Origin: Oceanispirochaeta crateris
GTDB taxonomy: Bacteria; Spirochaetota; Spirochaetia; DSM-2461
Assembly (NCBI RefSeq): GCF_008329965.1
Contig: NZ_CP036150.1
Span: forward strand, 2,728,001 to 2,792,000
DNA length: 64,000 bases
Direction of reading: 5' to 3'
In this document: piece after piece, positions 25,816-39,774 of the stretch
Layout: every line of letters begins with the position of its first letter
How positions within the stretch are numbered: position 1 is the stretch's first letter
The notes under the pieces: generated by a model
Databases searched by the model: none
Told to the model about the DNA's origin: nothing
Seen by the model: only the letters and a program-made list of their open reading frames with translations
Translations under genes and position numbers: made by a program

Positions 25816-27320
25816 CAGAATACAGAGAACCTGCTCTTCTGAGCCGGGAAGCTGATGATATAAAAGACCGGCTAAACTTGCCTGAAGGACTTCATGACTT
25901 AAAAGCCAAAGAGAGAGCCGCCATTCCTCAGCAGGAGATGCCGGCCCAGGAAGCCCGAATTAGAGCACACAATATGGATGAGGTGGCCCTTGGGTATACT
26001 GAAAGCCAGGTTATTGTCGAAGCCAGCCGTTGTCTGGGTTGTAAGAATGCCCCCTGTGTTGCCGGTTGTCCCGTAGGCATCAACATCCCGGGATTCATCG
26101 CGGCAGCGGCACAATATAAATTTGATGAAGCCCTCCAAATCATCCAAGAAAGCAGCATACTTCCTGCCATTTGTGGCAGAGTCTGTCCGCAGGAAAAGCA
26201 GTGCATGCAACTCTGCACCCTGGGTAAAATTAAAAAAGACCCACTCCAGTCGGTGGCCATAGGCAGGATTGAGCGATTTTTGGCCGACCACGGTAGTTCC
26301 CACAGCACTCTTGATTCAAAACAGCCCTCTACAGGCAAAAAGGTAGCCATTGTTGGCAGTGGCCCTTCCGGATTAACCACAGCTGCCGATCTGGCCCGCC
26401 TTGGTCATGATGTCACGATTTTTGAAGCATTTCACAAAGCCGGAGGCGTCACAGTGTACGGCATCCCTGAGTTCCGCCTGCCAAAATCCATCGTCAGCAG
26501 AGAAGTAGAGAATCTGGAGGCTCTGGGAGTCAAAATCATCTATGACTACCTCATTGGTAGAACCAGAACAATCAAAGAACTGATGGAAAAAGACGGATAT
26601 GATTCAGTTTATGTAGCAAACGGAGCAGGGCTTCCCAAGTTCATGAATATTGAAGGGGAAAATCTGGTGGGGGTCTTCTCTGCCAACGAATACCTTACCC
26701 GAACAAACCTAATGAAAGCCTATGATAGAGACAATGCAGCGACCCCCTTGTATTCCTCTAAAAAAGTAGCGGTTTTCGGAGGAGGTAACGTAGCCATGGA
26801 TGCGGCGAGAACCGCCCTCAGGATGGGGGCGGAAGAAGTTCACATTGTCTACAGACGAACAGAAGCCGAAATGCCTGCCCGTAAAGAGGAAGTTCTCCAT
26901 GCCCGGGAGGAAGGGATCATATTTGATCTATTGACCAACCCTTCCCGAATCTTAGGGGATGAAAATGGAAGAGTCAGGGGCATTGAGTGCCTTAAGTATA
27001 AATTGGGAATACCAGATGAGTCGGGAAGAGCCCGTCCGGAGGTCATCGAGGGAAGTGAATTTCAGATGGAGATTGATACTTGCATTACCGCTTTGGGCAA
27101 CAGCTCAAACCCATTGGTAACGGGAACCACTCCCGAACTGGAAGTCAATAAATGGGGAAATATCATTGTAGATGAAAATGGAATGACCTCAATGAAAGGT
27201 GTATTTGCGGGTGGAGATATTGTGCAGGGTGCCGCCACGGTCATACTGGCAATGGGAGATGGCAGGATTGCCGCCAGAGGAATTCATCAATATCTGTCAA
27301 ATGAGGCTCAGCCTTTATGA
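25812..27320 (+). CDS. nfnB: Ferredoxin:NADP+ transhydrogenase large subunit NfnB (GltD-like)
   Basis: This 502-aa flavoprotein is the large Nfn subunit, related to the glutamate synthase small chain. Cysteine motifs for two [4Fe-4S] clusters are near the N-terminus (CLGCKNAPCVAGCP and CGRVCPQEKQCMQLC, about 75-140). The FAD motif is VAIVGSGPSGLTTAADLA (near 176-193) and the NADPH motif VAVFGGGNVAMDAARTA (near 318-334). The C-terminus ends with GGDIVQGAATVILAMGDGRIAA, the FAD-closing motif. The product is the site of flavin-based electron bifurcation in the Nfn complex. It is last in the operon and its end overlaps by six bases the end of a convergent gene. Confidence 0.96.
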   Translation: MTEYREPALLSREADDIKDRLNLPEGLHDLKAKERAAIPQQEMPAQEARIRAHNMDEVALGYTESQVIVEASRCLGCKNAPCVAGCPVGINIPGFIAAAAQYKFDEALQIIQESSILPAICGRVCPQEKQCMQLCTLGKIKKDPLQSVAIGRIERFLADHGSSHSTLDSKQPSTGKKVAIVGSGPSGLTTAADLARLGHDVTIFEAFHKAGGVTVYGIPEFRLPKSIVSREVENLEALGVKIIYDYLIGRTRTIKELMEKDGYDSVYVANGAGLPKFMNIEGENLVGVFSANEYLTRTNLMKAYDRDNAATPLYSSKKVAVFGGGNVAMDAARTALRMGAEEVHIVYRRTEAEMPARKEEVLHAREEGIIFDLLTNPSRILGDENGRVRGIECLKYKLGIPDESGRARPEVIEGSEFQMEIDTCITALGNSSNPLVTGTTPELEVNKWGNIIVDENGMTSMKGVFAGGDIVQGAATVILAMGDGRIAARGIHQYLSNEAQPL

Positions 27321-27794
27321 GGCAGAAGTAAAACTCTCCAGAAGGGCCTGGTACAAATCTTTCAGCACCGGGCTCTTCCCATTGGGAATATAGACTTCAG
27401 CAAGAATATCGCTGCGTTCCTTTTGAATCCATCGAAACAGACGCGGACCGGCTTCTGAGTCAGAACCGGCGGCAGATGCTATTTGATAGAGCGCCCGGAT
27501 TTCACTGGAATCCATAAAAAGGCGGACCTTCCCAACACAGATATTGAAAAACTTAGGCCTTTCCGTCTGCTCTATCCACAGCTTCGGAATATCAGAAACA
27601 GGATTCTTAACGACTGAATCACCAGGTGCATCCTCAGATGTGGTGGCTTCTTCAGTACGGGATTCCCTTTGAATACGGACTTTCCGATTATATTCCAGAA
27701 CCTCAGCCTGTTGTCGTAAAAATACCAAATCCTGAGTCTCCAGATTTGTCATCAAAGACAGGATCTCTTCCTTAATTCTTTTATTCTCATCCAT
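27315..27794 (-). CDS. Unknown 159-aa protein of the sensory hydrogenase operon
   Basis: I do not recognise this family. The 159-aa sequence has an N-terminal charged helical part (about 1-45, likely coiled coil), a low-complexity acidic linker (about 45-65) and a compact C-terminal part (about 70-159) with ICVGKVRLFMDSSEIRALYQI and a terminal helix. It has no signal peptide, membrane segment or metal motif. It is the last gene of the operon that encodes the HydS-type protein and the SpoIIE-type phosphatase (gap of 21 bases), so it may be a partner or substrate of the phosphatase. This is an inference from position. Confidence 0.7.
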   Translation of the reverse strand: MDENKRIKEEILSLMTNLETQDLVFLRQQAEVLEYNRKVRIQRESRTEEATTSEDAPGDSVVKNPVSDIPKLWIEQTERPKFFNICVGKVRLFMDSSEIRALYQIASAAGSDSEAGPRLFRWIQKERSDILAEVYIPNGKSPVLKDLYQALLESFTSAS

Positions 27795-27815
27795 AACTTA
27801 AATATAGCTCAAATA

Positions 27816-28997
27816 TCAGATATAATTGATGAGAACTTCTTTGAAATAGAGTTTTTCAAGGGTGTTTGCAATACTGATGATCAAGTTACGCCGGATTTCC
27901 AGAGCCACCGGCATATTGGGATCCTGGTGTGCTTCATTGATTCGGGTACCAACCATAAAATGAATCACATCTGAATTGATCATCTCTTTCACAATGCGTT
28001 CTGCAGGATCACCCTTCCCGCCAACGGGTTCTAACCTTTTTTCGAGGTACTCATGCACCCGACTCATGGTGATAATACCTTCGGTTACCAGATCGACCCC
28101 TTCCATGGTGGAACAGGGGGGAATTGTATCGGTCTGGCTTCCCAAATCCAAGGTGAGGTTCCGCCCCAGTTCCCGGGCAATAATGTTTGCCGTGGTTCCT
28201 CCGGAAATGATTGTCGTTCCATCAAAACCACTGATCATCCCGGCTAAATGTTTATCCCGTTCACGATCATAGGGAGGGCCGGTTGCAATCATCAACTGCC
28301 GGGGATTTCTGAAGTAGAGAGATCCGCAGGTTATATCATCCTTAGGAGAATAGACATCGTGTTTCAAACTTTCACGAACCAGGGCTTTTGAAAGCTGAGA
28401 TGAGGAGTACTCCGGATGTGAGACAAGTGTCGTCAATAGAAACTGCCGGGCGCCCGCATCTCCCCATCCCAATGGAGTCTCTTTCATACCCAATCCCGAC
28501 TGGGTCACACCATCGGAGAAAAAAACAAGCCGATCTCCGCTGACAGCCTGAAAGCTTGAGCAGCGGATGATATTCCGTTTTGTATTGACTGTCTTGAAGC
28601 TGAAGCTCTCAGATTCCGGTTCTTCGATTTGTCCATCCCGTATCAGGACAAAGTGGGGGTTGTCATATTCGGCAATCTGAACCAGACCATGTTCGTCAAC
28701 ATCCACAATCGTAAAGGTGGAATAGCTGATTTTCCGGATACTGCAAACGGGAAGAGTTCTGGATATGAGTTCCGCTGTTTTTAAGGGAGGCAGGTTGTTT
28801 TCGATAGACCGCAGAGCCATGGTCGCCGTGAGTGTTGAAAGGACATTGGCCCGGATACCGCTTCCAAGACCATCGGAGAGCACAGAGATAACCCTCTGCC
28901 TTCCCTGCGCCTTCTGAGTCAGAAAGGCATCCCCGGGAGCCGACTCACCCTTCTTCGTAATCTGAAAATATCCAACGTCAAAAAAAGTCTTAATCAT
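27816..28997 (-). CDS. SpoIIE-type PP2C phosphatase with an extra C-terminal domain
   Basis: This 393-aa protein has a PP2C/SpoIIE phosphatase core (about 1-227): the metal-binding aspartates lie in SVLSDGLGSG (near 38-47), FFSDGVTQSG (near 164-173) and SPKDDITCGSL (near 213-223). A further 165 residues (about 228-393; ISGGTTANIIARELG is the clearest motif) have no function that I recognise. The start overlaps the end of the HydS-type gene by eight bases. Phosphatases of this kind are known neighbours of sensory [FeFe]-hydrogenases and probably transmit the H2 or redox signal to a phosphorylated partner. No anti-sigma factor or STAS gene is in the window. Confidence 0.88.
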   Translation of the reverse strand: MIKTFFDVGYFQITKKGESAPGDAFLTQKAQGRQRVISVLSDGLGSGIRANVLSTLTATMALRSIENNLPPLKTAELISRTLPVCSIRKISYSTFTIVDVDEHGLVQIAEYDNPHFVLIRDGQIEEPESESFSFKTVNTKRNIIRCSSFQAVSGDRLVFFSDGVTQSGLGMKETPLGWGDAGARQFLLTTLVSHPEYSSSQLSKALVRESLKHDVYSPKDDITCGSLYFRNPRQLMIATGPPYDRERDKHLAGMISGFDGTTIISGGTTANIIARELGRNLTLDLGSQTDTIPPCSTMEGVDLVTEGIITMSRVHEYLEKRLEPVGGKGDPAERIVKEMINSDVIHFMVGTRINEAHQDPNMPVALEIRRNLIISIANTLEKLYFKEVLINYI

Positions 28998-30720
28998 CAG
29001 AGTCCCTGTTTGATTCAGAACTAAATGAGGTGATGATGGAGTTCAGCATGACTTCACTCTGAGCAGCATTCTCTCCCAATAGAAAGGCAATCTGCTGCAC
29101 CGTGGAGATGCTGTTTTCCATAACCTTGCGGGCCTGTTTAATGACCTGATCTTTTTGAACCCAGGGAAGAGTGACATCTTGAAAAATAGCCCCCACGGCC
29201 TGATCCTTTTCGATGGTGAATACCGAACCTGTAAAAACCTTGTTCTCCAAATGAAATGTCTGATCGGTTAAGACTCCTTCTTCGGAGAGAACCCCCTGAA
29301 ACAGGGATGTAAAAGGAAGTATCTTTGATAAAGAAGCCCCCTTCAAACCGGGTTTTGCCTCAAAAGCAGCCAGAGTCTCTTCACCAATCAATGTGGCAAA
29401 GGCTCTATTACACTGAATGATCTTCATCTCGGCATCCACAATGACTACACCGGAAGGCATGGATCTGATCAGAGCATCCGCCTTCTTTTCGGATAGTGTC
29501 CTGAGATAACTGACGCACATATCTTTCTCGGCCCGTCCATCCAGAAAGGCTCTGGCATAATCCCGGCAGGTCGAATATCCGCAGGCTCCACAATTTTTCT
29601 CGTCTCCACTATCGTATTTACCGATATTTCTCAGGGCTTTCCTGATTTCCAGTTCATCATGGGATACGACCTTCACTGCATTAATTTTCCGGTCGTACTG
29701 GATACTGGTGCAGGACTTATAGAGGGGGACCTGTTCTTTGCGGCTTGTGGCATAATCCATAAGGATTTTCTCTTTCACAGCTGTTCCCGAATGTTTAGCA
29801 CAGCCCGGGCCATTGATGCACCCTCCTTCACAGGCCAAAAGCTCAAGGAACAGAGGTTCCTTCTGCCCCAGCACTTCTAGGTTGTTCAGGACTCCTCCCA
29901 TGGAATGAACATTTGTAAAGCTCAGCATCTGATTATCCTTGAGGATGGTCTTCTGCAGCTTCAAACTGCGGATCATACCCCCTTCTAGTGGATATGAGGC
30001 TCCGTCATAGGAAAACTGAGGGACAAAACTCTCCTCATCACTACCGGATAACGAGGAGAGATCAATTTGATTCTGGGCAAACCAGCTTTTCAAATCATTG
30101 AAGGTTATAGCCGTATGCAGTAAGTCTTCTCTAAGATCGGCTTCTCTTTTTTTGGAAATGCAGGGACCGGCAAAAACAATAATACAATCCTCGCCATAGA
30201 GCTCCTTCAACATCTGACAGTGAGTGAGCAAAGGCGAAAGATGATCAATGATCGATGATGAATATTGGGGTTTATGCTTATGAATATACTCCACCATGGT
30301 GGGACAAGCGGACGAAATGAAAACGCCATGGTCTGCCTTCTGCAACACCGCATTGGTATGCCGGCTCACTTCCTGAGCCCCTATAGCCGTTTCAGAAACC
30401 GCCCAAAACCCCAGGTCCTTTATCGCCCGGATAAGAGTCTTTTCAGAAATACCGGGAAACTCCCCAGCAAAAGAGGGAGCCAAAGAAAGGATGACTTTTT
30501 CATGATCTTCCAAGGCCCGTTGGGCCCTGGGCAGATCATTACGTATCCGCTTTGCCCCGACAGGACACATGAGGTAACAATTCCCGCAGAGAATACAATC
30601 ATCCACGAGAATTTTAGCATGGCCGTCTTCCACTTTTATGCTTTTCACCGGGCAATGACGGATGCATTTATAGCAATCCTGGCACTCTGTAATTTCTGTA
30701 TAGATAGGGTTGAGTTTCAT
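28990..30720 (-). CDS. hydS: HydS-type sensory [FeFe]-hydrogenase with PAS domain
   Basis: This 576-aa protein starts with two ferredoxin [4Fe-4S] motifs (Cys13/16/19/23 and Cys42/45/48/52), followed by an H-cluster domain with altered signatures: SSACP (136-140; the proton-transfer Cys of TSCCP is Ala138), GPCISKK (185-191; Gly for Met) and LLACEGGC (294-301; both ligand Cys kept). A further four-Cys motif (Cys377, 380, 385, 402) and a PAS domain (about 415-520) end in a helical stretch. This build matches group C sensory hydrogenases, in which slow H-cluster chemistry reports H2 to the PAS output. It lacks a kinase domain, so output probably goes through the phosphatase encoded next. Confidence 0.92.
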   Translation of the reverse strand: MKLNPIYTEITECQDCYKCIRHCPVKSIKVEDGHAKILVDDCILCGNCYLMCPVGAKRIRNDLPRAQRALEDHEKVILSLAPSFAGEFPGISEKTLIRAIKDLGFWAVSETAIGAQEVSRHTNAVLQKADHGVFISSACPTMVEYIHKHKPQYSSSIIDHLSPLLTHCQMLKELYGEDCIIVFAGPCISKKREADLREDLLHTAITFNDLKSWFAQNQIDLSSLSGSDEESFVPQFSYDGASYPLEGGMIRSLKLQKTILKDNQMLSFTNVHSMGGVLNNLEVLGQKEPLFLELLACEGGCINGPGCAKHSGTAVKEKILMDYATSRKEQVPLYKSCTSIQYDRKINAVKVVSHDELEIRKALRNIGKYDSGDEKNCGACGYSTCRDYARAFLDGRAEKDMCVSYLRTLSEKKADALIRSMPSGVVIVDAEMKIIQCNRAFATLIGEETLAAFEAKPGLKGASLSKILPFTSLFQGVLSEEGVLTDQTFHLENKVFTGSVFTIEKDQAVGAIFQDVTLPWVQKDQVIKQARKVMENSISTVQQIAFLLGENAAQSEVMLNSIITSFSSESNRDSDD

Positions 30721-31097: not shown

Positions 31098-32549
31098 TTA
31101 CTCTAGGATAACAACACGATTTTTACCAGATCCTTTAGACTGGTAGAGTGCCGCATCGGCTCGTTGAACGACCGATTTCAGTTCATCATCATCCCGAACA
31201 GAAGAGACCCCCATACTCACTGTCATGCTAGCCTGGATTCCCAGATCATTGAAAACGGTCCGTTCAGAAAGGGCAATCCGTATCCTTTCTGCCGAAGCAA
31301 AAGCAACCTTTGAGTCTGCTCCCATAAGGATCACAAACTCATCCCCGCCCCAGCGAGCAAGAACATCAGTAGGACGGATGACTTCATGGATGATATCGGT
31401 CATGCGGATCAGGACCTTATCTCCTATGGCATGACCATATTGGTCATTGATGGTCTTAAAGTCATCCAGATCAATGATAATAATGGAATATTTTGATTCG
31501 TACCTCTTAATGCTATATATCGATGTAAGAAACCGTTTTTCAAGCTCCCTCCGGTTCAAGGCTCCGGTCAAACTATCCGTACTGGCTAAATTTTCCAGAT
31601 AAAGCTGAAAACTGCCGATAGTTTTGGAGCTCAAATAAGCTAAAAGGATAGTGGTGAAAATACCCACCACAATATTGATAAAGAGATTTCTCCTTGCAGC
31701 ATCCATATACTCATATTCATGCTGTTCCACAAGGATAAACCACCCCAGTTCTTCCATATACCGAGAACTTATAAGCGAAGGATTCTGGGATGCATTATAA
31801 ATAAGATCTGTGGGAAAATCTGAAGGATTAAGGAGATCATCGGCAATATCCCGTAATCCAGGAATATCATAAATAGAGAGTGTCTCAACCTTAGTGATAT
31901 CCGGATGAACTTGTATAATTCCCCGATCATCAACCATATAGATGTCCCGTTTATACTCATCTTTTTTTTCGGCCAGAGTGACACTGATCTTATCCAACCG
32001 GATGCCGACACCGGCAACACCTAGAAAATGCCCTGTGGAATCAACAACTCTAAAATTGATAAAGACAGTCAGAATTCCATTTGAAGCTTCATCAGAATCA
32101 ACATCCAAATCGTATTCGAGGCCCGAGTTAACAAACTTATAATACCAGATATCATGAGAGTCCACCGGGCTGACTTGTTTCAGAATTCCGTCATAGTAAT
32201 AATAATTCTCACTTTTTTCTGAAACCAAAAAAGCAGTAAAAAATCCGAATTCTTCTTTTATAACCTTTAAATAGTCTACAATCTCCTGTTCATCCGATTC
32301 ACCATCGTGTATCCAGTCCACAAGGAATGTATCTCTGGACATAGCAGAAGAAATATTGATGGGCAGAGTCAGGTAGCTTTGTATATAGGAGTAGATATTT
32401 TCACTCAAAAGAGGAAGTGAAGAGTGAAGAATCTCCTTTCTCATGGAAGCCCTGGCACTATAATATGAATAGAAACTGACAGAAATAAATGAGACAGCAA
32501 TAATTGAGATCAGTGCTACAAGTGTTAGTTTTCTTGAGGGGATATGCAT
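31098..32549 (-). CDS. Membrane diguanylate cyclase with dCACHE sensor
   Basis: This 483-aa protein has a membrane helix (about 8-28), a large extracytoplasmic dCACHE-like sensor region (about 30-285; for example SHDIWYYKFVNSG and VAGVGIRLDKISVTL), a second helix (about 287-307) and a C-terminal GGDEF domain (about 325-483) with the active-site motif RWGGDEFVILMG. It should make cyclic-di-GMP in response to an external ligand. An inhibitory RXXD motif is not obvious. It is transcribed alone and lies just upstream of the sensory hydrogenase promoter. Confidence 0.94.
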   Translation of the reverse strand: MHIPSRKLTLVALISIIAVSFISVSFYSYYSARASMRKEILHSSLPLLSENIYSYIQSYLTLPINISSAMSRDTFLVDWIHDGESDEQEIVDYLKVIKEEFGFFTAFLVSEKSENYYYYDGILKQVSPVDSHDIWYYKFVNSGLEYDLDVDSDEASNGILTVFINFRVVDSTGHFLGVAGVGIRLDKISVTLAEKKDEYKRDIYMVDDRGIIQVHPDITKVETLSIYDIPGLRDIADDLLNPSDFPTDLIYNASQNPSLISSRYMEELGWFILVEQHEYEYMDAARRNLFINIVVGIFTTILLAYLSSKTIGSFQLYLENLASTDSLTGALNRRELEKRFLTSIYSIKRYESKYSIIIIDLDDFKTINDQYGHAIGDKVLIRMTDIIHEVIRPTDVLARWGGDEFVILMGADSKVAFASAERIRIALSERTVFNDLGIQASMTVSMGVSSVRDDDELKSVVQRADAALYQSKGSGKNRVVILE

Positions 32550-32684
32550 TCTTTATTATATATTATTATTGAAATAGAACAAGAGAACCCCCTACAAACC
32601 AGGAAACCGGCAATAAATAGAAAACTGAAAATAATTTAAATTTTCTTGACCCTCTGCGGCAGAATGAGTTATCAAGAGGCAACT

Positions 32685-33299
32685 ATGAACAATATACGAA
32701 TCAAACAAGATCTCCATATCCATACAACATATTCATTTGGCGACAGCGCCGTTGTCCCCCAGCAAACCGTTCAATTGATTGAGAACCTGAATCACGCAGA
32801 GCTTCGGGGCATCAGCGATCATTTCGGATACCTCAAAGGTGACGTTTTTCAAAAGTACAAGGCAGACCTGCACCAACATGGCTTTTATTGCGGATGTGAA
32901 GTGAATGACAGCATAGATGTTCTTGAAGCTGTGAACTACTCCTTTGACTACTTTATATACCATTGCCGTGATAAAGCCTCCGAATACAAAGGGGCTGAAA
33001 GACTCGTGGAAACAGGCAAACCTGTGATTATATCCCATCCCATCGCCATAGGTGCAGATCTGGATAAAGTCCCTACCGACTGCTATATTGAGGTCAATAA
33101 CCGGTATATATGGAAAGCGGAAAATTACAAAGCCTTTTATACTCCCCACTTAAGCCGTTTTCGCTTTGTGATCGGTTCGGATGCCCATCAACCAAACTGG
33201 CTGAACCAGACAGTAGCAAGGTATGCCGCAGCTCAGATGGGAATTGAAGAAACAATGGTTTTTTCCGCCCCCTTTCAATCGCAGACAAAGTCCCTCTAA
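32685..33299 (+). CDS. PHP-domain metal-dependent hydrolase
   Basis: This 204-aa protein belongs to the PHP superfamily. The metal-ligand motifs are HIHTTYSFGDS (near 9-19), GISDHFGYL (near 41-49), ISHPIAIGADLDKVP and SDAHQPNWL (near 165-173). PHP proteins hydrolyse phosphoesters (histidinol phosphatase, nucleases) or act on related substrates; the substrate here is unknown. The ATG at 32685 follows AAGAGGC; a TTG at 32646 in frame is less likely. It faces the GH130 gene tail to tail. Confidence 0.85.
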   Translation: MNNIRIKQDLHIHTTYSFGDSAVVPQQTVQLIENLNHAELRGISDHFGYLKGDVFQKYKADLHQHGFYCGCEVNDSIDVLEAVNYSFDYFIYHCRDKASEYKGAERLVETGKPVIISHPIAIGADLDKVPTDCYIEVNNRYIWKAENYKAFYTPHLSRFRFVIGSDAHQPNWLNQTVARYAAAQMGIEETMVFSAPFQSQTKSL

Positions 33300-33320
33300 G
33301 GGTAACCTTTATGCTTTACA

Positions 33321-34793
33321 CTATTTTTCACGTTTCAGTTCTGCCAGCAACTCCCTAAGGTTCACTGTACAGTATGTTGATGAATAATCAGAAACGGCAT
33401 AGGGAAGGATCAATTCTTCATTATGAATGATGGAACCGCAGGAATAGACCACATTGGGGACATATCCCTCACGTTCCATCTCATTGGCCGTGAGCAGGGG
33501 AGAATCCAGCCGTCCTATTTCTACTTCGGGATTCTCAAGATCAAGAAGTATGGCTCCCAGAACATATTCCCTCATGGCACCCACACCATGGGTAATAACA
33601 AGCCATCCATCTTCGGTCTCCAGGGGTGATCCACAGTTCCCCACCTGGATAAACTCCCAGGTATATCGGGGAGACTGAACCATTTTAGCCTCTGTCCACA
33701 GGTTTAGATTGTCAGAGAAGGAGATGTAATTATTCCTGCCGTCCATCCGGCAGAGCATGGCATACTTACCTCTTATTTTTCTTGGAAAAAGAGCCATCCC
33801 CTTGTTCCTGGCAATATTCCCATGAAGTGGATGAACCTTGAAATGATAGAAGTCACTTGTCTCGATCAGTTTTGGCATGGTAGTCATTCCGTCATACGCC
33901 GTGTATGTCCCATAGTACTGGGTCATTCCCTCATCGGTGAATTTGACAAACCGGGCATCCTCAATCCCCCGCCTCTCTGTAGAAGAAATCGGGAAAATAA
34001 CCCTTTCACACAACGAAGAATCAAGGGAAAAATCTATTTCATAATGGGATGATGCCAACCACATGATTTTACTATAGCAAGAGTTTTCCTCCATTGAGGT
34101 AATCCCTTCGCGTTCCATGACCTCCTTTATACACGATTCCAACTCTCCATAGGTAAAGTCATCGCCCAGGCAGGAGAGGGCATCTTTGGGAATGAGATTA
34201 TCCTGATGGTCCTGCAGCTCTTCTAGGTCCTGTAAGAACTGCTTCTTATTATATAGATGTCGTTTGATCCTCTCGGCTTCCGCCAGCATGGATCCCACTG
34301 GATCCATTTTAAAATTCCCGTCTCTATCCACTATGCCTGAACGAAAAACAATGGATGAAAGATGGCCTTCTCCTGTGGCACGGAAACTCAGAATAACCCT
34401 CTTTTCTCCAGGGAGTAAGCCCAGCTGATCCGGCGATTCAACGATGGAAGGATTAAAAAAGGCTGCCGCCTCGACGGAATACTCCATAGTAAAATAGGCT
34501 CCGATAAGAACACGCCTATTTGTATCCACCTTATTTCTATCAATCTCCATCTGCGAAAGAAGATGATTCAGGAGATCAAAATGTTTTTCAAAAACCTTGG
34601 AAATATTGCGGTGTCTTTTTGAATACCGTCGAAGGATCTGATTCAGTTGATTTTTGACTTCATCATCACTGAGATCCAAAATGCTTTTGACTATTATGGC
34701 ACTGCGTTCATCACCGGTATAGAAGTATCTGGCAATGACCCTAGACAGATCAGGATTGAAAGTGACATCCCGTCTTTTCACATGAACCTGCAT
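33321..34793 (-). CDS. GH130-like beta-mannoside phosphorylase or mannosidase
   Basis: This 490-aa protein matches glycoside hydrolase family 130: ERRGIEDARFVKF (near 276-288) contains the family GIEDAR signature, with YGTYTAYDG, a basic patch around GKYAMLCRMDGR, and a C-terminal motif GYVPNVVYSCGSIIHNEELILPY. About 130 N-terminal residues precede the propeller, as in the longer GH130 subfamilies. Members phosphorolyse or hydrolyse beta-mannosides. The ATG at 34793 follows AAGAGGA. It has no signal peptide, so it acts in the cytoplasm. It is divergent from the PIG-L/GT4/glycosidase operon and probably belongs to the same pathway. Confidence 0.85.
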   Translation of the reverse strand: MQVHVKRRDVTFNPDLSRVIARYFYTGDERSAIIVKSILDLSDDEVKNQLNQILRRYSKRHRNISKVFEKHFDLLNHLLSQMEIDRNKVDTNRRVLIGAYFTMEYSVEAAAFFNPSIVESPDQLGLLPGEKRVILSFRATGEGHLSSIVFRSGIVDRDGNFKMDPVGSMLAEAERIKRHLYNKKQFLQDLEELQDHQDNLIPKDALSCLGDDFTYGELESCIKEVMEREGITSMEENSCYSKIMWLASSHYEIDFSLDSSLCERVIFPISSTERRGIEDARFVKFTDEGMTQYYGTYTAYDGMTTMPKLIETSDFYHFKVHPLHGNIARNKGMALFPRKIRGKYAMLCRMDGRNNYISFSDNLNLWTEAKMVQSPRYTWEFIQVGNCGSPLETEDGWLVITHGVGAMREYVLGAILLDLENPEVEIGRLDSPLLTANEMEREGYVPNVVYSCGSIIHNEELILPYAVSDYSSTYCTVNLRELLAELKREK

Positions 34794-34998
34794 AAAAAAT
34801 CCTCTTATCAATAGTGTATATTTTAATCTAGCTCCTTATGCAATTTTAATTCATCCATACTCCAACTACATCATTATTTTCCAAATAGTTGATAAATCTG
34901 AAATATTGCTGATGAAAGAATAAGAAAAATCTTGTGTCCGGATATTGACTGAATTATCATTCATAGAAAGAAGGCATCCATATGGTTTGGATAAAGAG

Positions 34999-35622
34999 AT
35001 GAGAAAGAGTGTTGCAGTCATCGTGGCACACCCCGATGATGAGACTCTCTGGGCCGCTGGAACAATACTGACTGAAAAGTTTGAAGATTGTTTTATTTTG
35101 AGCCTCTGTAGACTGTCCGATACAGATCGGTCGCCCAAATTTTTTCGGGTACTTGATGAATGGGGTGCCAGTGGTGCTATGGCAGATCTGGATGATGGTC
35201 CCGAACAATTGAGCCTTGATGAGGAGCTGATAACCTCCACCATCCTCAGTCATCTCCCCCGGCTAAGTTTTGACATGATCTACACCCACAGTCCAGCAGG
35301 AGAATACACACGGCACAAAAGGCATGAAGAAATAGGCCGGACCGTATTGAACCTCTGGATTTCCGGACGTTTAAGATCGCAGGAACTAAGACTCTTTGCT
35401 TACGAAGACCGTAACAAATCAACCTTACCCAAAAGCATTTCTTCCGCGCCGGTCCAATGCCGCCTGGACCAGGAGATCTGGCAGAAAAAGTACAGAATCA
35501 TTACTGATATTTATGGATTCAACAAAGATAGTTTTGAAGCCAGAACGACTCCCGAACAAGAAGCCTTTTGGCAATTCACGAGTACAACACAAGCCGCAGA
35601 ATGGTTAAAAAAGGATATATAG
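34999..35622 (+). CDS. PIG-L/LmbE-family N-acetylglucosamine deacetylase-like protein
   Basis: This protein (207 residues from the ATG at 34999) has the PIG-L/LmbE zinc motif AHPDDETLW near the N-terminus and YTHSPAGEYTRHKRHEEIG (near 95-113) with the second His pair. The family removes acetyl groups from GlcNAc-containing molecules such as GlcNAc-inositol, GlcNAc-malate, teicoplanin or chitooligosaccharides. It is followed after 3 bases by a glycosyltransferase and then a glycosidase, so it probably deacetylates the glycoside that the transferase makes. The start is uncertain: a TTG at 34945 in frame is also possible. Confidence 0.85.
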   Translation: MRKSVAVIVAHPDDETLWAAGTILTEKFEDCFILSLCRLSDTDRSPKFFRVLDEWGASGAMADLDDGPEQLSLDEELITSTILSHLPRLSFDMIYTHSPAGEYTRHKRHEEIGRTVLNLWISGRLRSQELRLFAYEDRNKSTLPKSISSAPVQCRLDQEIWQKKYRIITDIYGFNKDSFEARTTPEQEAFWQFTSTTQAAEWLKKDI

Positions 35623-35625
35623 ACT

Positions 35626-36765
35626 ATGAAAGTTCTGGTTATGTACGATTATCCCCCGTCTCCTGGAGGATTGGCAACTCAGGGGGACATGCTCTATCGG
35701 GGACTTAAAAAAATGGGTGTGGATGTTTATGCCGTCAACTCCTGCTCAACCATGGAAAAAGAGTGGTATTACAAATGGTTTAAACCGGATGTGGTCACCG
35801 GAGTCGGGTACTGGGGTTACACTCCGGATATCATTCTTCACCCGCAGAAGTTCGCGGTACTACCCGTTCCCTGGCTCGTTGCCGACGGTTACATTGCCAA
35901 CTACCAGGATGTTTTGAATCAACTGCCCCTCATCCTGGTGACCTCTCAATGGGTTAAAGACATGTATGTTCGGGATGGCATTTCAAAAGAGAATATTGAA
36001 GTATTGCCAGTAGGGTGTGAAACAGAAATATTCAAGCCGATTTCCAAGGATGATCCTAAAATTCAATCCATTAGAAAAAATCTGGGAATCTCGGAAGATC
36101 AATTGATGATACTGACCATCGGAGGAGATGCTGCTTCCAAGGGTGCTCAGGAAGTGATGCAGGCCTTAGCAAGCCTGGAGGGTAAAGTTCCAGACTGGCG
36201 TTATATTTGCAAGGTTTGGCCTCAGGACAGGACGACCTCTCAGAATTCTATGGATGAGAAACTGGCAAAACAATTGGGTATCGAAAAACAAATGGATTTT
36301 CAGACAAGTATCATCTCCCGGAACTTCATTCCCTACCTGATGAATGCCTGTGATATATATGCTGCGCCCGCCCGTTTGGAGGGGTTTGGTATGCCTCAAG
36401 TAGAAGCCGGGGCTTGTGGCAAACCTGTTATCAGCATCAATGCCATGGGCCCCAAGGATACAATGATTCATGGAGAAACAGCCATGTTGGCCAGTGTTGC
36501 ACAAAAGATTCTCCTCCACGAAACAATACTGGGAAAAGAATCAGGATATGAAGAGAATACTAAGTTTGTTTTTGATCCTCCCAGAATTGTGGATTACCGG
36601 GCTAGTATTCCCGATATTACCGATTCTCTCCTTCAATTGATGAATGATAAAGCCCTGAGAGACCGCCTGGGAAATGCCGCAAGAAACCATGTCGTCAAGA
36701 ATTTTGATTATATGGTTGTTGCTGAAAAGTTTATGCAGATAGTTCAAAAAAAGCTGGGTAAGTAG
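35626..36765 (+). CDS. GT4-family glycosyltransferase
   Basis: This 379-aa protein is a GT-B fold family 4 glycosyltransferase. The N-terminal acceptor half opens with MYDYPPSPGGLATQGDML (near 4-21), and the donor half carries TIGGDAASKGAQEVMQAL (near 164-181) and the EX7E element in EGFGMPQVEAGACGKPVI (near 250-267). It has no membrane segment. It should transfer a sugar from a nucleotide donor (UDP-, GDP- or ADP-linked). It lies between a PIG-L deacetylase and a glycosidase, with gaps of 3 and 4 bases. It does not show the BshA N-terminal pattern, so bacillithiol synthesis is not supported. Confidence 0.88.
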   Translation: MKVLVMYDYPPSPGGLATQGDMLYRGLKKMGVDVYAVNSCSTMEKEWYYKWFKPDVVTGVGYWGYTPDIILHPQKFAVLPVPWLVADGYIANYQDVLNQLPLILVTSQWVKDMYVRDGISKENIEVLPVGCETEIFKPISKDDPKIQSIRKNLGISEDQLMILTIGGDAASKGAQEVMQALASLEGKVPDWRYICKVWPQDRTTSQNSMDEKLAKQLGIEKQMDFQTSIISRNFIPYLMNACDIYAAPARLEGFGMPQVEAGACGKPVISINAMGPKDTMIHGETAMLASVAQKILLHETILGKESGYEENTKFVFDPPRIVDYRASIPDITDSLLQLMNDKALRDRLGNAARNHVVKNFDYMVVAEKFMQIVQKKLGK

Positions 36766-36769
36766 GGAC

Positions 36770-37969
36770 ATGGACAAATATCAGTGGGATATGATTCACA
36801 AGGCTGAGCTGGCGGCTCATGAAGTATTGAGACATAATGCATTTGGCCCTTTTGAAAACCTGCCACGCACGGCTGGGTGGGGATATCCCGAACCCTACAC
36901 CAGAGATCTGATGATCGCCATGCCGGGAATGCTCCTTTGTGATGACCCGATCCTAACGGACCAGATGAGAATGACACTCCAGACTCTGGCTTCGAATCAA
37001 TCTCCTCACGGACAGATCCCATCGCTGGTACATGATTCTAAAAACAGAGGAGCCAGCGATACAACCCCGCTCTATCTTCTTGGACTGGCCCTATTCAGAG
37101 CAGCAACGGGAGAAAAGGAATTCCTGGAAGAATCAGCACGTCAAGCTTTAAATTGGATGACTTACCAGAGTCCTACAGACAGCGCTCTCATAGGACAACT
37201 GCCTACAACAGACTGGCGGGACGAACAGTGGGTCATCGGTTATGGATTATATGTAAACACATTAGCCTATGCTTACCTTCGGTTTTTCGGAGAAAAGAAT
37301 CAGGCGGCAGGCCTGGCTCAGTCCTTCTGCTGTTTTGATATTAAGGAAGGAAGGGCACACAGTCATGTTCACAGCAAGCTCAGAGAAAAAGAAAAGCCCT
37401 ACTATGGTTTCTGGTCCTTCAAAGTTTACAGTAGTGAGCGCTTTGACCTTCTTGGAAACAGCCTTGCCATCCTAACAGGGCTGGCTCCCCTGAAAAGGGC
37501 AAAAAATATTGTTAAATGGATCAGCAGAGAGTGCGAGTTTCTAAAAACAAATGGGGACTTGATTGTGGATCTGCCCCCCAATTTTTTCCCGTATATGAGA
37601 AAAGAAGATCCTGACTGGCTGGATCGCTATGAGCAGTACAATAGGCCAGGAGAGTACCATAATGGAGGAATTTGGCCTTTTATCAACGGTTTTTATATTG
37701 CAGCCCTTGTAGCCGCAGAAGAATATGATCTTGCTGAAGAAAAACTCATGGTTCTCACCGAGCTTGTCCAAAAATCCGGGAACAAGGATCTTACATTTGG
37801 TTTTAATGAATGGATTAAGGCTCAGGATGGGTCAATACAGGGGCAGGACTGGCAAACATGGTCGGCCGCGATGTATATTTATGCCGCTCGTTGTGTGAGA
37901 GACAGGAAGACACCTTTTTTCGATATCATCAGACAAAGGGAGGTCTCCCCCCCCAACTCAAGCAAATGA
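36770..37969 (+). CDS. Six-hairpin glycosidase, GH100/amylo-glucosidase-like
   Basis: This 399-aa protein has the features of an (alpha/alpha)6-barrel glycosidase: YPEPYTRDLMIAMPGML (near 42-58) with a probable catalytic Asp, GQIPSLVHD, YHNGGIWPFINGFYIAAL (near 295-312) and GQDWQTWSAAMYIYAAR (near 362-378). The pattern resembles GH100 neutral invertases and debranching-like families, but the specific substrate is not clear. It has no signal peptide and is therefore cytoplasmic. It is the last gene of the PIG-L/GT4 group, 4 bases after the transferase. Confidence 0.8.
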   Translation: MDKYQWDMIHKAELAAHEVLRHNAFGPFENLPRTAGWGYPEPYTRDLMIAMPGMLLCDDPILTDQMRMTLQTLASNQSPHGQIPSLVHDSKNRGASDTTPLYLLGLALFRAATGEKEFLEESARQALNWMTYQSPTDSALIGQLPTTDWRDEQWVIGYGLYVNTLAYAYLRFFGEKNQAAGLAQSFCCFDIKEGRAHSHVHSKLREKEKPYYGFWSFKVYSSERFDLLGNSLAILTGLAPLKRAKNIVKWISRECEFLKTNGDLIVDLPPNFFPYMRKEDPDWLDRYEQYNRPGEYHNGGIWPFINGFYIAALVAAEEYDLAEEKLMVLTELVQKSGNKDLTFGFNEWIKAQDGSIQGQDWQTWSAAMYIYAARCVRDRKTPFFDIIRQREVSPPNSSK

Positions 37970-38037
37970 CGATGCAGCCTGTACTATCATCTGCACCATC
38001 ATTCTGTCTAAGATTAACACAGACACCGGTCGATCAA

Positions 38038-38298
38038 TTATTTCCGGGTCGACATCTTTTTGGGTTTAGCCCAGTCCATGATCAGTTTTCTGCCTAGAAA
38101 GGGGACTCCTTCAAGCGACTTGATAGCCATCTCAGCATCCTCTTCCTGTGCAAATTTGACATAGGCTATTCCTTTTTTCTGAATATGATTGACATCTGTA
38201 ACCGGACCGAATTGTTCCAGGATTTCATATAAATCCTCATCAGAAATGTCATAACTCAAATTCCCTAAATAAACATCCTGCACGGTTGTTTCACTCAT
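38038..38298 (-). CDS. RRM-type RNA-binding protein
   Basis: This 86-aa protein is a single RNA recognition motif: RNP2 VYLGNL (near 7-12) and RNP1-like GIAYVKF (near 41-47), with the usual beta-alpha-beta spacing and a short basic tail. Small RRM proteins occur in spirochaetes, cyanobacteria and other bacteria and bind RNA, but their role is poorly known. The ATG at 38298 overlaps the upstream gene by 8 bases and has AAAGGGG before it; an upstream in-frame start is unlikely. Confidence 0.9.
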   Translation of the reverse strand: MSETTVQDVYLGNLSYDISDEDLYEILEQFGPVTDVNHIQKKGIAYVKFAQEEDAEMAIKSLEGVPFLGRKLIMDWAKPKKMSTRK

Positions 38299-38497
38299 CG
38301 AGCATACCCCTTTCCATAGCAAACTCATATTCATCATGGTAGTTTTTTAATTCGGCAAAACCTATAGAATGAATCGTAATATGATCAAGAGGATTGTCCT
38401 CTTTCAGATATATACGTTCTTCTGTTGCGATATCCCGGTCATTGTAAACATCTACCAGCTCATCGTTTTGAGTCAGAAACCATAATTCTTTTTTCAT
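38291..38497 (-). CDS. Small unknown protein coupled to the RRM protein
   Basis: This 68-aa acidic protein is not a family that I recognise. It has no signal peptide, membrane segment or cysteine motif, and contains repeated acidic and aromatic residues (LVDVYNDRD, LKNYHDEYEF). AGAGG precedes the ATG. Its stop overlaps the RRM gene start by 8 bases, so the two are co-translated and may function together in RNA binding. Confidence 0.75.
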   Translation of the reverse strand: MKKELWFLTQNDELVDVYNDRDIATEERIYLKEDNPLDHITIHSIGFAELKNYHDEYEFAMERGMLDE

Positions 38498-38847
38498 GAG
38501 AACCTCTGATCTGCTTTGCTGGAGAACAATCTAGGCGTAGTAAGAGGGGTATCCCCAGTAAACCACAAACTGAAACCAACTCCAAAAGACAAAGCAATTA
38601 AATGAAGATGATAACAGACGTTTGTTAGCTTAAAGGGTCCTTAGTCTGTGATTAATGGCCATCGACAATGGCGCAGTAACTGCTTTTATAAATGGTTTAA
38701 AAACACGAGGTTGTCAATATTTATTTTGAAAAAAGCCTTGTGTTCTCCGGGACATAGGTTATGAATAAAATGTTTTTTGCAGTATTTAATTGTTCCAATA
38801 TAGTCATTTATTGTAATATGGAGGAAGCCTTCGAATAAGGAACAACC
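38498..38847. other. Intergenic region between the RRM pair and an AEC transporter
   Basis: The 350 bases separate two divergent units. Near 38794-38823 (TTGTTC, 18 bases, TAATAT) there is a weak promoter pair before the transporter gene, which has AAGGA as ribosome binding site. At 38669-38684 TGGCGC-AGTAA-CTGCT is a fair sigma-54 look-alike on the plus strand, but no enhancer is visible. I see no gene or strong hairpin in the rest. Confidence 0.45.
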
Positions 38848-39774
38848 ATGATTGATACTTTTCTGAGCATTCTGCCTGTGCTATTGTTTTTTTCCCTGGG
38901 TATTCTCCTTAGAAAGAAAAAATTTCTAAAGGAAAACAGCAGCCAGGATATAAAAAAGATAGTCTCTACTCTGGCACTCCCGGCTCTCTTATTCCAGGCT
39001 TTTGCGTCTATCAGTTTCGAAGCATCCCACCTTCTACTGGTCATCACCATCTTTTTAATCTGCCTAATGATGGTTCTTATAGGGAGAGTCACAGCCCGCA
39101 TCCTGAAAATCAGAACCCCCTACTGGCCCTTGATGATGGGGGGATTTGAAATGGGAATGTTGGGTTATGCTTTGTTTCTCTCTATTTATGGAAAAGAACA
39201 TATAGCCCAATTTGCTCTCATGGACCTGGGTCAGGTACTCTTTGTGTTCTTCGTTCTCATGACACTTTTAATCAGAGAAAAGGAAGGCAACAGTTCTCCA
39301 AAGTCTATTTTGCTTTCTTTTTTAAAGTCACCCGTAATTTTGGCCATATTTGCTGGGCTCATAACCGGTATGATCAAGCCCTTGGTCGATCCCAATTCAT
39401 TGACAACGGCCCTGGGTGAGTTCCTTACACTGACAGGGAACCTCACAGTTCCCCTTATTTCATTGATGATAGGATATGAGTTAAACTTCAAAAAATCAGG
39501 CATGACATTGGCTCTTATGACAATCATGGTCCGTAAAACCTTACTGATAGGTCTGGCCTTTCTGGTGAATACCCTTATCATTAGGAATTATCTTGGTCTT
39601 GACCGCATCTATGAGATGGCCCTGCTAACGATGTTCCTCCTCCCTTCCCCCTTCGTAATATCCATCTATATGAAGCAGGAAGATAAGGAGAACCTGGACT
39701 ATGTTAACAATACCCTTTCCTTGAGTACAATCATTTCTGTATGCCTGCTGATCCTTCTGACAATCCTGTACTAA
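38848..39774 (+). CDS. AEC-family (auxin efflux carrier-like) transporter
   Basis: This 308-aa membrane protein has about 8-10 hydrophobic helices and the AEC family pattern in two halves (IVSTLALPALLFQAFASI near 42-60; STIISVCLLILL at the end). AEC members export or import small organic acids, for example malate or malonate. It lies alone, divergent from the RRM pair, close to malic enzyme and the LDH2-type dehydrogenase, so a C4 or C3 acid is a reasonable substrate guess. Confidence 0.88.
   Translation: MIDTFLSILPVLLFFSLGILLRKKKFLKENSSQDIKKIVSTLALPALLFQAFASISFEASHLLLVITIFLICLMMVLIGRVTARILKIRTPYWPLMMGGFEMGMLGYALFLSIYGKEHIAQFALMDLGQVLFVFFVLMTLLIREKEGNSSPKSILLSFLKSPVILAIFAGLITGMIKPLVDPNSLTTALGEFLTLTGNLTVPLISLMIGYELNFKKSGMTLALMTIMVRKTLLIGLAFLVNTLIIRNYLGLDRIYEMALLTMFLLPSPFVISIYMKQEDKENLDYVNNTLSLSTIISVCLLILLTILY

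Follow-up and report, generated by a model that had tools for sequence, protein, structure and literature searches.

What is made by a short run of sugar-handling genes in Oceanispirochaeta crateris, and which of these genes belong together? The genes lie between positions 32,685 and 37,969 of the window, which here means the whole stretch of 64,000 nucleotides that was analysed (contig NZ_CP036150.1, positions 2,728,001 to 2,792,000; the genome is 4.01 Mb in one contig). A preliminary description had placed five genes here and taken them for one system. All five open reading frames are present where it put them. What holds together in other genomes is a smaller unit of a PIG-L family deacetylase, a GT4 glycosyltransferase and a GH100-like glycosidase, called the trio below. 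The favoured reading, which is given a probability of roughly 0.35, is that the trio operon serves both to build and to turn over an alpha-linked amino-glycoside inside the cell, and that in the window's lineage it is joined to a system made up of an N-terminally extended GH130 enzyme (GH130L) and a fusion protein.

The trio is coded on the forward strand. PIG-L comes first (34,945 to 35,622; 225 residues, TTG start), followed by GT4 (35,626 to 36,765; 379 residues) and then by the glycosidase, an (alpha/alpha)6 six-hairpin enzyme (36,770 to 37,969; 399 residues). The gaps between them are 3 and 4 bases, which is compatible with a single operon. The GH130L gene is divergent (33,321 to 34,811, reverse strand; 496 residues), and the 133 bases between it and PIG-L (34,812 to 34,944, by open reading frame coordinates) would house divergent promoters. 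A promoter scan of 32,400 to 39,000 gave little beyond chance, with 19 observed against 13.2 ± 4.2 in shuffles.

Gene neighbourhoods were read at 46 loci including the window (loci are numbered with L and genomes with G, where G000 is the window's own). Nine loci hold all three genes, and order and strand are identical in every one. These complete trios are found in the window's phylum (the window, L038, L039, L040, L042, L095 and L096), and in genomes drawn from the Bacteroidota group to which L003 belongs (L134 and L135). A tenth locus, L124 in G009, has PIG-L and GT4 only, cut by the end of the contig. The motifs AHPDDE, EGFGMPQVE, SDTTP, FNEW and YTRD are kept in all nine trios; the second PIG-L motif, as written below for the window, is kept in seven and differs in L134 and L135. 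The trio is a conserved unit, and the operon proposed in the preliminary description stands on both gaps and gene order.

Scattering of the genes in related genomes had been named as what would speak against a common system. The outcome of that check is mixed: the trio is never scattered, GH130L is adjacent in five of the nine loci, and the fifth gene, coding for a PHP-like protein, is found at none of the eight other trio loci. As one system, the five genes do not hold up.

The trio is rare. A search of 392 genomes from the window's phylum gives GT4 orthologues (E <= 1e-40) in G000, G063 and G097 only, and the glycosidase is present in exactly the same three. The glycosidase profile reaches 32 of the 392 at E <= 1e-3; the three counted score above 600 bits, and the score drops from 659 to 82 bits at the next match. 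The glycosidase is also present in G002, G012, G018 and G038, out of 60 relatives searched. In the Bacteroidota group 2 of 168 genomes have the GT4, both within the complete trios L134 and L135.

The GT4 of L134 and L135 is 67% identical to that of the window, while those of L042, L095 and L096 are 57-58% identical. Since the proteins from the other phylum are closer than these from its own, the sequences suggest horizontal transfer of the GT4 between phyla; the tree is small and unrooted. The trio fragment of G009 (L124:1520-4821) is flanked by genes that by eye look transposase-like, which would fit a mobile cluster. In both genomes with Bacteroidota-group trios (G448 and G453), an old-yellow-enzyme-type reductase precedes the trio (L134:7188-8300 and L135:7794-8906; the family was tested in L134 only), its end overlapping the PIG-L start by 4 bases.

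What could the three enzymes do? The PIG-L match is weak but above threshold (Pfam PF02585, 29.7 bits against a cut-off of 28.2), and the motifs AHPDDE and GEYTRHKRHEE are both intact in the window's protein. An in-frame ATG near 34,999 would shorten the protein and retain the motifs. No relatives were found in the PDB. The GT4 matches PF00534 with 81.9 bits. Its E-x7-E motif, EGFGMPQVE, and its PGGLATQG loop occur in all nine trio loci, the loop with one residue that varies in L095 and L096.

The synthesis of mycothiol and bacillithiol follows a simple logic: an N-acetylhexosamine is transferred, and is then deacetylated. Read along these lines, the trio's GT4 would transfer an N-acetylhexosamine, most likely N-acetylglucosamine (GlcNAc) from a uridine diphosphate (UDP) donor, with retention, to a soluble acceptor. 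PIG-L would remove the acetyl, which would leave an alpha-glucosaminyl group.

The glycosidase belongs with GH100 by sequence (PF12899, 43.6 bits, cut-off 23.6; GDE_C, 43.1) and by fold. Its AlphaFold model, with a predicted local distance difference test score (pLDDT) of 82.7, best matches the invertase InvA (5gop; Z 35.1, 3.1 Å over 357 residues). Next come an amylo-alpha-1,6-glucosidase (Z 31.0) and the GH63 mannosylglycerate hydrolase 4wvc (Z 28.4, 2.9 Å over 312 residues). With the GH100 alkaline/neutral invertases InvA and InvB it shares the fold, YHNGG-WP and the catalytic Glu motifs, but it is only some 16-20% identical to them in structure alignments. The Glu of its FNEW lines up with that of FPEY in the invertases; Asp97 and Glu347 are presumably catalytic. 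GH100 is an inverting alpha-glucosidase family. The trio's enzyme would hydrolyse, with inversion, an alpha-glycosidic linkage in the family of compounds that GT4 and PIG-L yield, as a means of editing or recovery.

Such pairs are found elsewhere. Distant relatives of the glycosidase adjoin a GT4 in L097-L099, L109 and L110, all in the window's phylum. At L109:2462-6025 the gene for a sucrose-phosphate-synthase-like GT4 stands before one in which a sucrose-6-phosphate phosphatase is fused to a GH100-like enzyme; going by sequence, this one operon would both produce and hydrolyse sucrose or a related compound. The pairing of GT4 and GH100-like genes at the trio and at other loci points to a recurring make-and-break arrangement, and PIG-L occupies in the trio the place that the phosphatase has in the L109 module. 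Sucrose metabolism proper was considered for the trio and rejected, because its GT4 does not resemble a sucrose-phosphate synthase (sucr_P_syn_N, 30.1 bits against 576).

The other enzyme of the window's cluster, GH130L, matches PF04041 clearly (101.7 bits, cut-off 26). It is long, with 496 residues against 303-390 in solved relatives. Its model (pLDDT 89.5) is a five-bladed propeller, with added helices before blade 1 and between blades 1 and 2. The top fold match is the beta-1,2-mannobiose phosphorylase 7fir (Z 37.0, 1.8 Å over 283 residues); further down are 9gph (Z 36.1), the mannoside synthase Uhgb_MS (35.4) and beta-1,4 enzymes (at most 34.3). The NCBIfam equivalog models are well out of reach, at 144.6 bits against 550 for NF050092 and 137.5 against 450 for NF052550, the beta-1,2 model.

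The catalytic pair is Glu284-Asp285, the Asp lying within GIEDARF. Cuskin et al. (PMC4599007) give two features of beta-1,2 GH130 enzymes, Lys at the +1 subsite and Glu just ahead of the catalytic Asp. The window's enzyme has both, as Glu284 and Lys337 (the NK position), where the aligned beta-1,4 enzymes have Tyr and Arg. Lys337 would be the equivalent of Lys199 in BT3780, itself outside the alignment; the Glu pair of BT3780-type GH130 mannosidases is absent from GH130L. In Uhgb_MP the three basic residues that bind phosphate are Arg168, Lys212 and His231. The corresponding Arg355 and His408 are kept in GH130L, and the third position is Gln389, where relatives in L052, L054 and L055 carry Lys.

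Sequence and model together make GH130L likely to be a beta-1,2-mannoside enzyme. By its residues it would act on beta-1,2-mannosidic bonds, either by reversible phosphorolysis to mannose-1-phosphate or by synthesis. A comparable system is that of Thermoanaerobacter Teth514_1786-1789, which the published account (PMC4264767) gives as beta-1,2-oligomannan and beta-1,2-mannobiose phosphorylases, ManC and a GT4. Both have cytoplasmic beta-1,2-mannoside GH130s coded with a GT4, and it is the Thermoanaerobacter enzymes that the window's GH130L matches best in both sequence and fold. The window's enzyme differs in its 496 residues, its extra helices, its Gln at the phosphate position and its PIG-L and GH100-like neighbours, and no ManC or sugar ATP-binding cassette operon was recognised adjoining it.

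The literature treats GH130 enzymes chiefly as catabolic, serving to break down mannosides (PMC8950772). The setting of GH130L is a different one. It was looked at in 36 loci with a match of at least 400 bits, which are best hits and not a random sample, and in 30 of these a glycosyltransferase lies within 3 kb. The loci without one are L005 and L006 (both with a related gene some 6 kb off), L041 and L050 (both short contigs), L061, where GH130L adjoins a GH65 enzyme and a 764-residue protein that matches no Pfam family, and L114, a contig from a viral collection. An extended GH130 subgroup that sits beside glycosyltransferases in two bacterial groups points to intracellular mannoside synthesis. 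The preliminary description had treated GH130 as a generic cleaving enzyme; its features speak instead for beta-1,2-mannosides, and it lies in a synthetic context.

Two further observations concern GH130L. The enzyme is found on two IMG/VR contigs (L114:5019-6488 and L115:4947-6056), and a viral link was considered; no trio or fusion genes lie nearby, and the idea was dropped. In L003 a second GH130 paralogue (L003:11613-13082) stands next to the normal one. Its GIED is replaced (GYKSP), and it is probably inactive.

The commonest partner of GH130L is a GT4 fused to an (alpha/alpha)6-like domain. Among solved structures, the putative exported protein 7tem is closest to this second domain in sequence; a literature search for YPO2471, its solved relative, turned up no paper. 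The fusion is present in 26 of the 392 phylum genomes (31 match at E <= 1e-30, from which G032, G057, G111, G125 and G196 were dropped as matching with the GT4 half only). GH130L is likewise present in 26, a count that takes in partial matches. Both occur in 22, against an expected 1.7; this hypergeometric figure is descriptive and ignores relatedness. For 20 of these 22 genomes, both genes share a contig and are no more than about 2.6 kb apart. The exceptions are G063 and G097, where the fusion adjoins the trio instead.

In the window's own genome the fusion gene (G000:C1:2444858-2447089) is about 320 kb away from the cluster. The bounds first drawn around the cluster missed this partner. Beside the fusion gene is a second GH130L, near a gene with a lactate-racemase domain (Lar_N) (G000:C1:2443377-2447089, or L037:9372-13081), and G002 (L047) repeats this arrangement. 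In L128, L129 and L130 the cluster consists of the fusion, a short GH130, another GT4 and GH130L. The short GH130 of L128, the one tested, scores 256.7 bits to NF050092, mannobiose phosphorylase, and 205.3 to NF052550, beta-1,2-mannobiose phosphorylase.

How does this system touch the trio? GH130L, the fusion or both are adjacent in seven of the nine trio loci: GH130L in the window, L038, L039, L040 and L042, and the fusion in L040, L042, L095 and L096. The trio genomes among the 392 (G000, G063 and G097) all also hold both GH130L and the fusion. In the window's lineage the trio would then be an addition to a wider glycan system of GH130L and the GT4-(alpha/alpha)6 fusion protein, and the simplest joint product would be a cytoplasmic beta-1,2-manno-oligosaccharide that bears glucosamine. 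From the observed genes, gene order, catalytic motifs, folds and co-occurrence we infer all donors, acceptors and reaction directions, as well as the link between GH130 and the product of the trio. That a cytoplasmic glycoside is both synthesised and recycled, as the preliminary description had it, is supported by a retaining GT4 and a GH100-like enzyme in one conserved operon, and by GH130L loci that are rich in glycosyltransferases and do not look like mannan degradation.

A number of points count against this reading. Its main weakness is that GH130 and the fusion are absent near the trio in L134 and L135 (elsewhere in these genomes was not searched), and that G009 has PIG-L and GT4 yet no GH130L match, so that the trio may have an acceptor of its own. 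GH130L does not adjoin the trio in G063 and G097, and the fusion went unmatched in the trio-bearing G018, a draft that is 80% complete. No gene for the supply of GDP-mannose or mannose-1-phosphate was seen adjoining the trio. UDP-GlcNAc specificity is not readable from the GT4 sequence, the subsites of the glycosidase do not discriminate between glucose, mannose and glucosamine, and Gln389 at the phosphate site means that phosphorolysis is not assured.

Other products have to be weighed. The pair of GT4 and PIG-L is the signature of the mycothiol and bacillithiol pathways, where a retaining GT4 (MshA, BshA) is likewise coded beside a PIG-L protein (MshB, BshB), and acting in the same manner the trio would make a glucosamine-based low-molecular-weight thiol or cofactor. 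MshA is indeed the best NCBIfam match of the trio's GT4, and the reductase that overlaps PIG-L in the Bacteroidota-group loci would suit detoxification. The scores are far too low for this, however, at 65.9 bits against 462.5 for MshA, 39.4 against 273.7 for BshA and 15.4 against 195.25 for BshB2; the third of the conserved genes codes for a GH100-like glycosidase, and among the trio's neighbours, not all of which were searched, no cysteine ligase was recognised. A thiol is very improbable, and the preliminary description was right in keeping this locus apart from the mycothiol and bacillithiol gene sets. A compatible solute seems rather unlikely. Here the product would be an osmolyte like mannosyl- or glucosylglycerate; the glycosidase would serve for its hydrolytic release, and GH130 would recycle the mannose. 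The fold of the glycosidase is also near that of the GH63 mannosylglycerate hydrolase, and it barely reaches an MGH1-like model (27.2 bits, cut-off 27), but InvA is clearly the better match and the glucosylglycerate hydrolase model NF047898 gives only 12.6 bits against 550. Further hints come from proteins of about 500 residues without Pfam match that lie beside GH130L and a GT4 in G097 (L127:5940-7457) and G063 (L126:8511-10001): the former weakly matches a mannosylglucosylglycerate synthase model (49.3 bits, cut-off 640), and the latter shares its start. Against an osmolyte, the trio is not accompanied by any conserved phosphatase, and a PIG-L deacetylase is not known to have a role in the glycerate osmolytes described so far.

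The remaining alternatives differ in where the glycan goes or comes from. If the GT4s built a lipid-linked or exported glycan for the envelope, with GH130 and the glycosidase trimming it, this would fit that many of their NCBIfam matches are exopolysaccharide or lipopolysaccharide transferases. PIG-L acts on lipid-linked GlcNAc in the synthesis of glycosylphosphatidylinositol, which would fit as well. It is an unlikely reading nonetheless: all the enzymes appear cytosolic, and the genes that flank the trio in the nine loci, only a minority of which were compared with family libraries, include no recognised flippase, polymerase or lipid carrier transferase. The other possibility is that beta-mannosides or N-glycan fragments are imported and salvaged, as with most characterised GH130 enzymes, and that precedent within the family (PMC8950772) is its attraction. 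With GH130L beside glycosyltransferases in most of its loci, and with a GT4 and a PIG-L in the trio that are synthetic or modifying enzymes, salvage can be given little credence.

The reading of an amino-glycoside made and broken by the trio also has a bolder form. Leishmania stores mannogen, an intracellular beta-1,2-mannan, by means of GT108 dual mannosyltransferase-phosphorylases (MPT) with a GH130-related five-bladed propeller (PMC8950772). Bacteria might have a cytoplasmic beta-1,2-mannan system parallel to this, in which GH130L is synthetic or reversible and works with the bifunctional fusion, and in which the trio caps the chain with alpha-glucosamine and the GH100-like enzyme uncaps it for use. 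This is improbable as things stand. The MPT structures are clearly more distant from the GH130L model (Z 21.5-22.4, with 6q50 at 22.4) than the GH130 phosphorylases are, at 37.0. To our knowledge no operon of GT4, PIG-L or glycosidase is part of the mannogen system.

The enzyme families involved are not new. Their combination is uncharacterised as far as literature searches reach: no account of it was found, and a query for GH130, PIG-L and glycosyltransferase gave nothing related. If the parallel with mannogen were true, there would be a bacterial counterpart of the Leishmania storage polysaccharide. If the trio does what is proposed, a defined operon of three genes, which can be expressed and assayed, offers a route to a new intracellular amino-glycoside.

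This leaves the fifth gene, which codes for the small PHP-like protein (32,685 to 33,299, forward strand; 204 residues). The other families named in the preliminary description hold; the PHP assignment falls short, with 23.1 bits to PF02811 under a cut-off of 26.4. Its orthologues are found in 14 of 61 genomes, which is 13 besides the window's own, and in none of the 13 are they on a contig that bears the trio. At least five of the 13 (G007, G009, G023, G030 and G055) are without a full-length GH130 of the GH130L kind. In G002 alone does the PHP gene adjoin a 3' fragment of GH130 (C220), on a different contig from the trio of that genome. The protein is a mere neighbour and not a part of the system, and the role of pathway phosphatase once given to it was rejected, since it is unlinked to the trio in relatives.

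None of the five N-termini has an apparent signal peptide, judged by eye only, which agrees with what had been said of them before. Anti-phage defence was considered because of GT4-conflict matches (16.7 bits in the window, under the cut-off of 26; 28.8 in L134), and rejected after a PADLOC search with 6 proteins at E <= 0.001 gave 0 matches. Elsewhere in the window, at 27,315 to 30,720 on the reverse strand, the translations read as a ferredoxin or iron-hydrogenase-like protein that includes a PAS-like part, and, from the next gene, a protein whose start resembles a SpoIIE phosphatase. This pair resembles a redox sensor operon.

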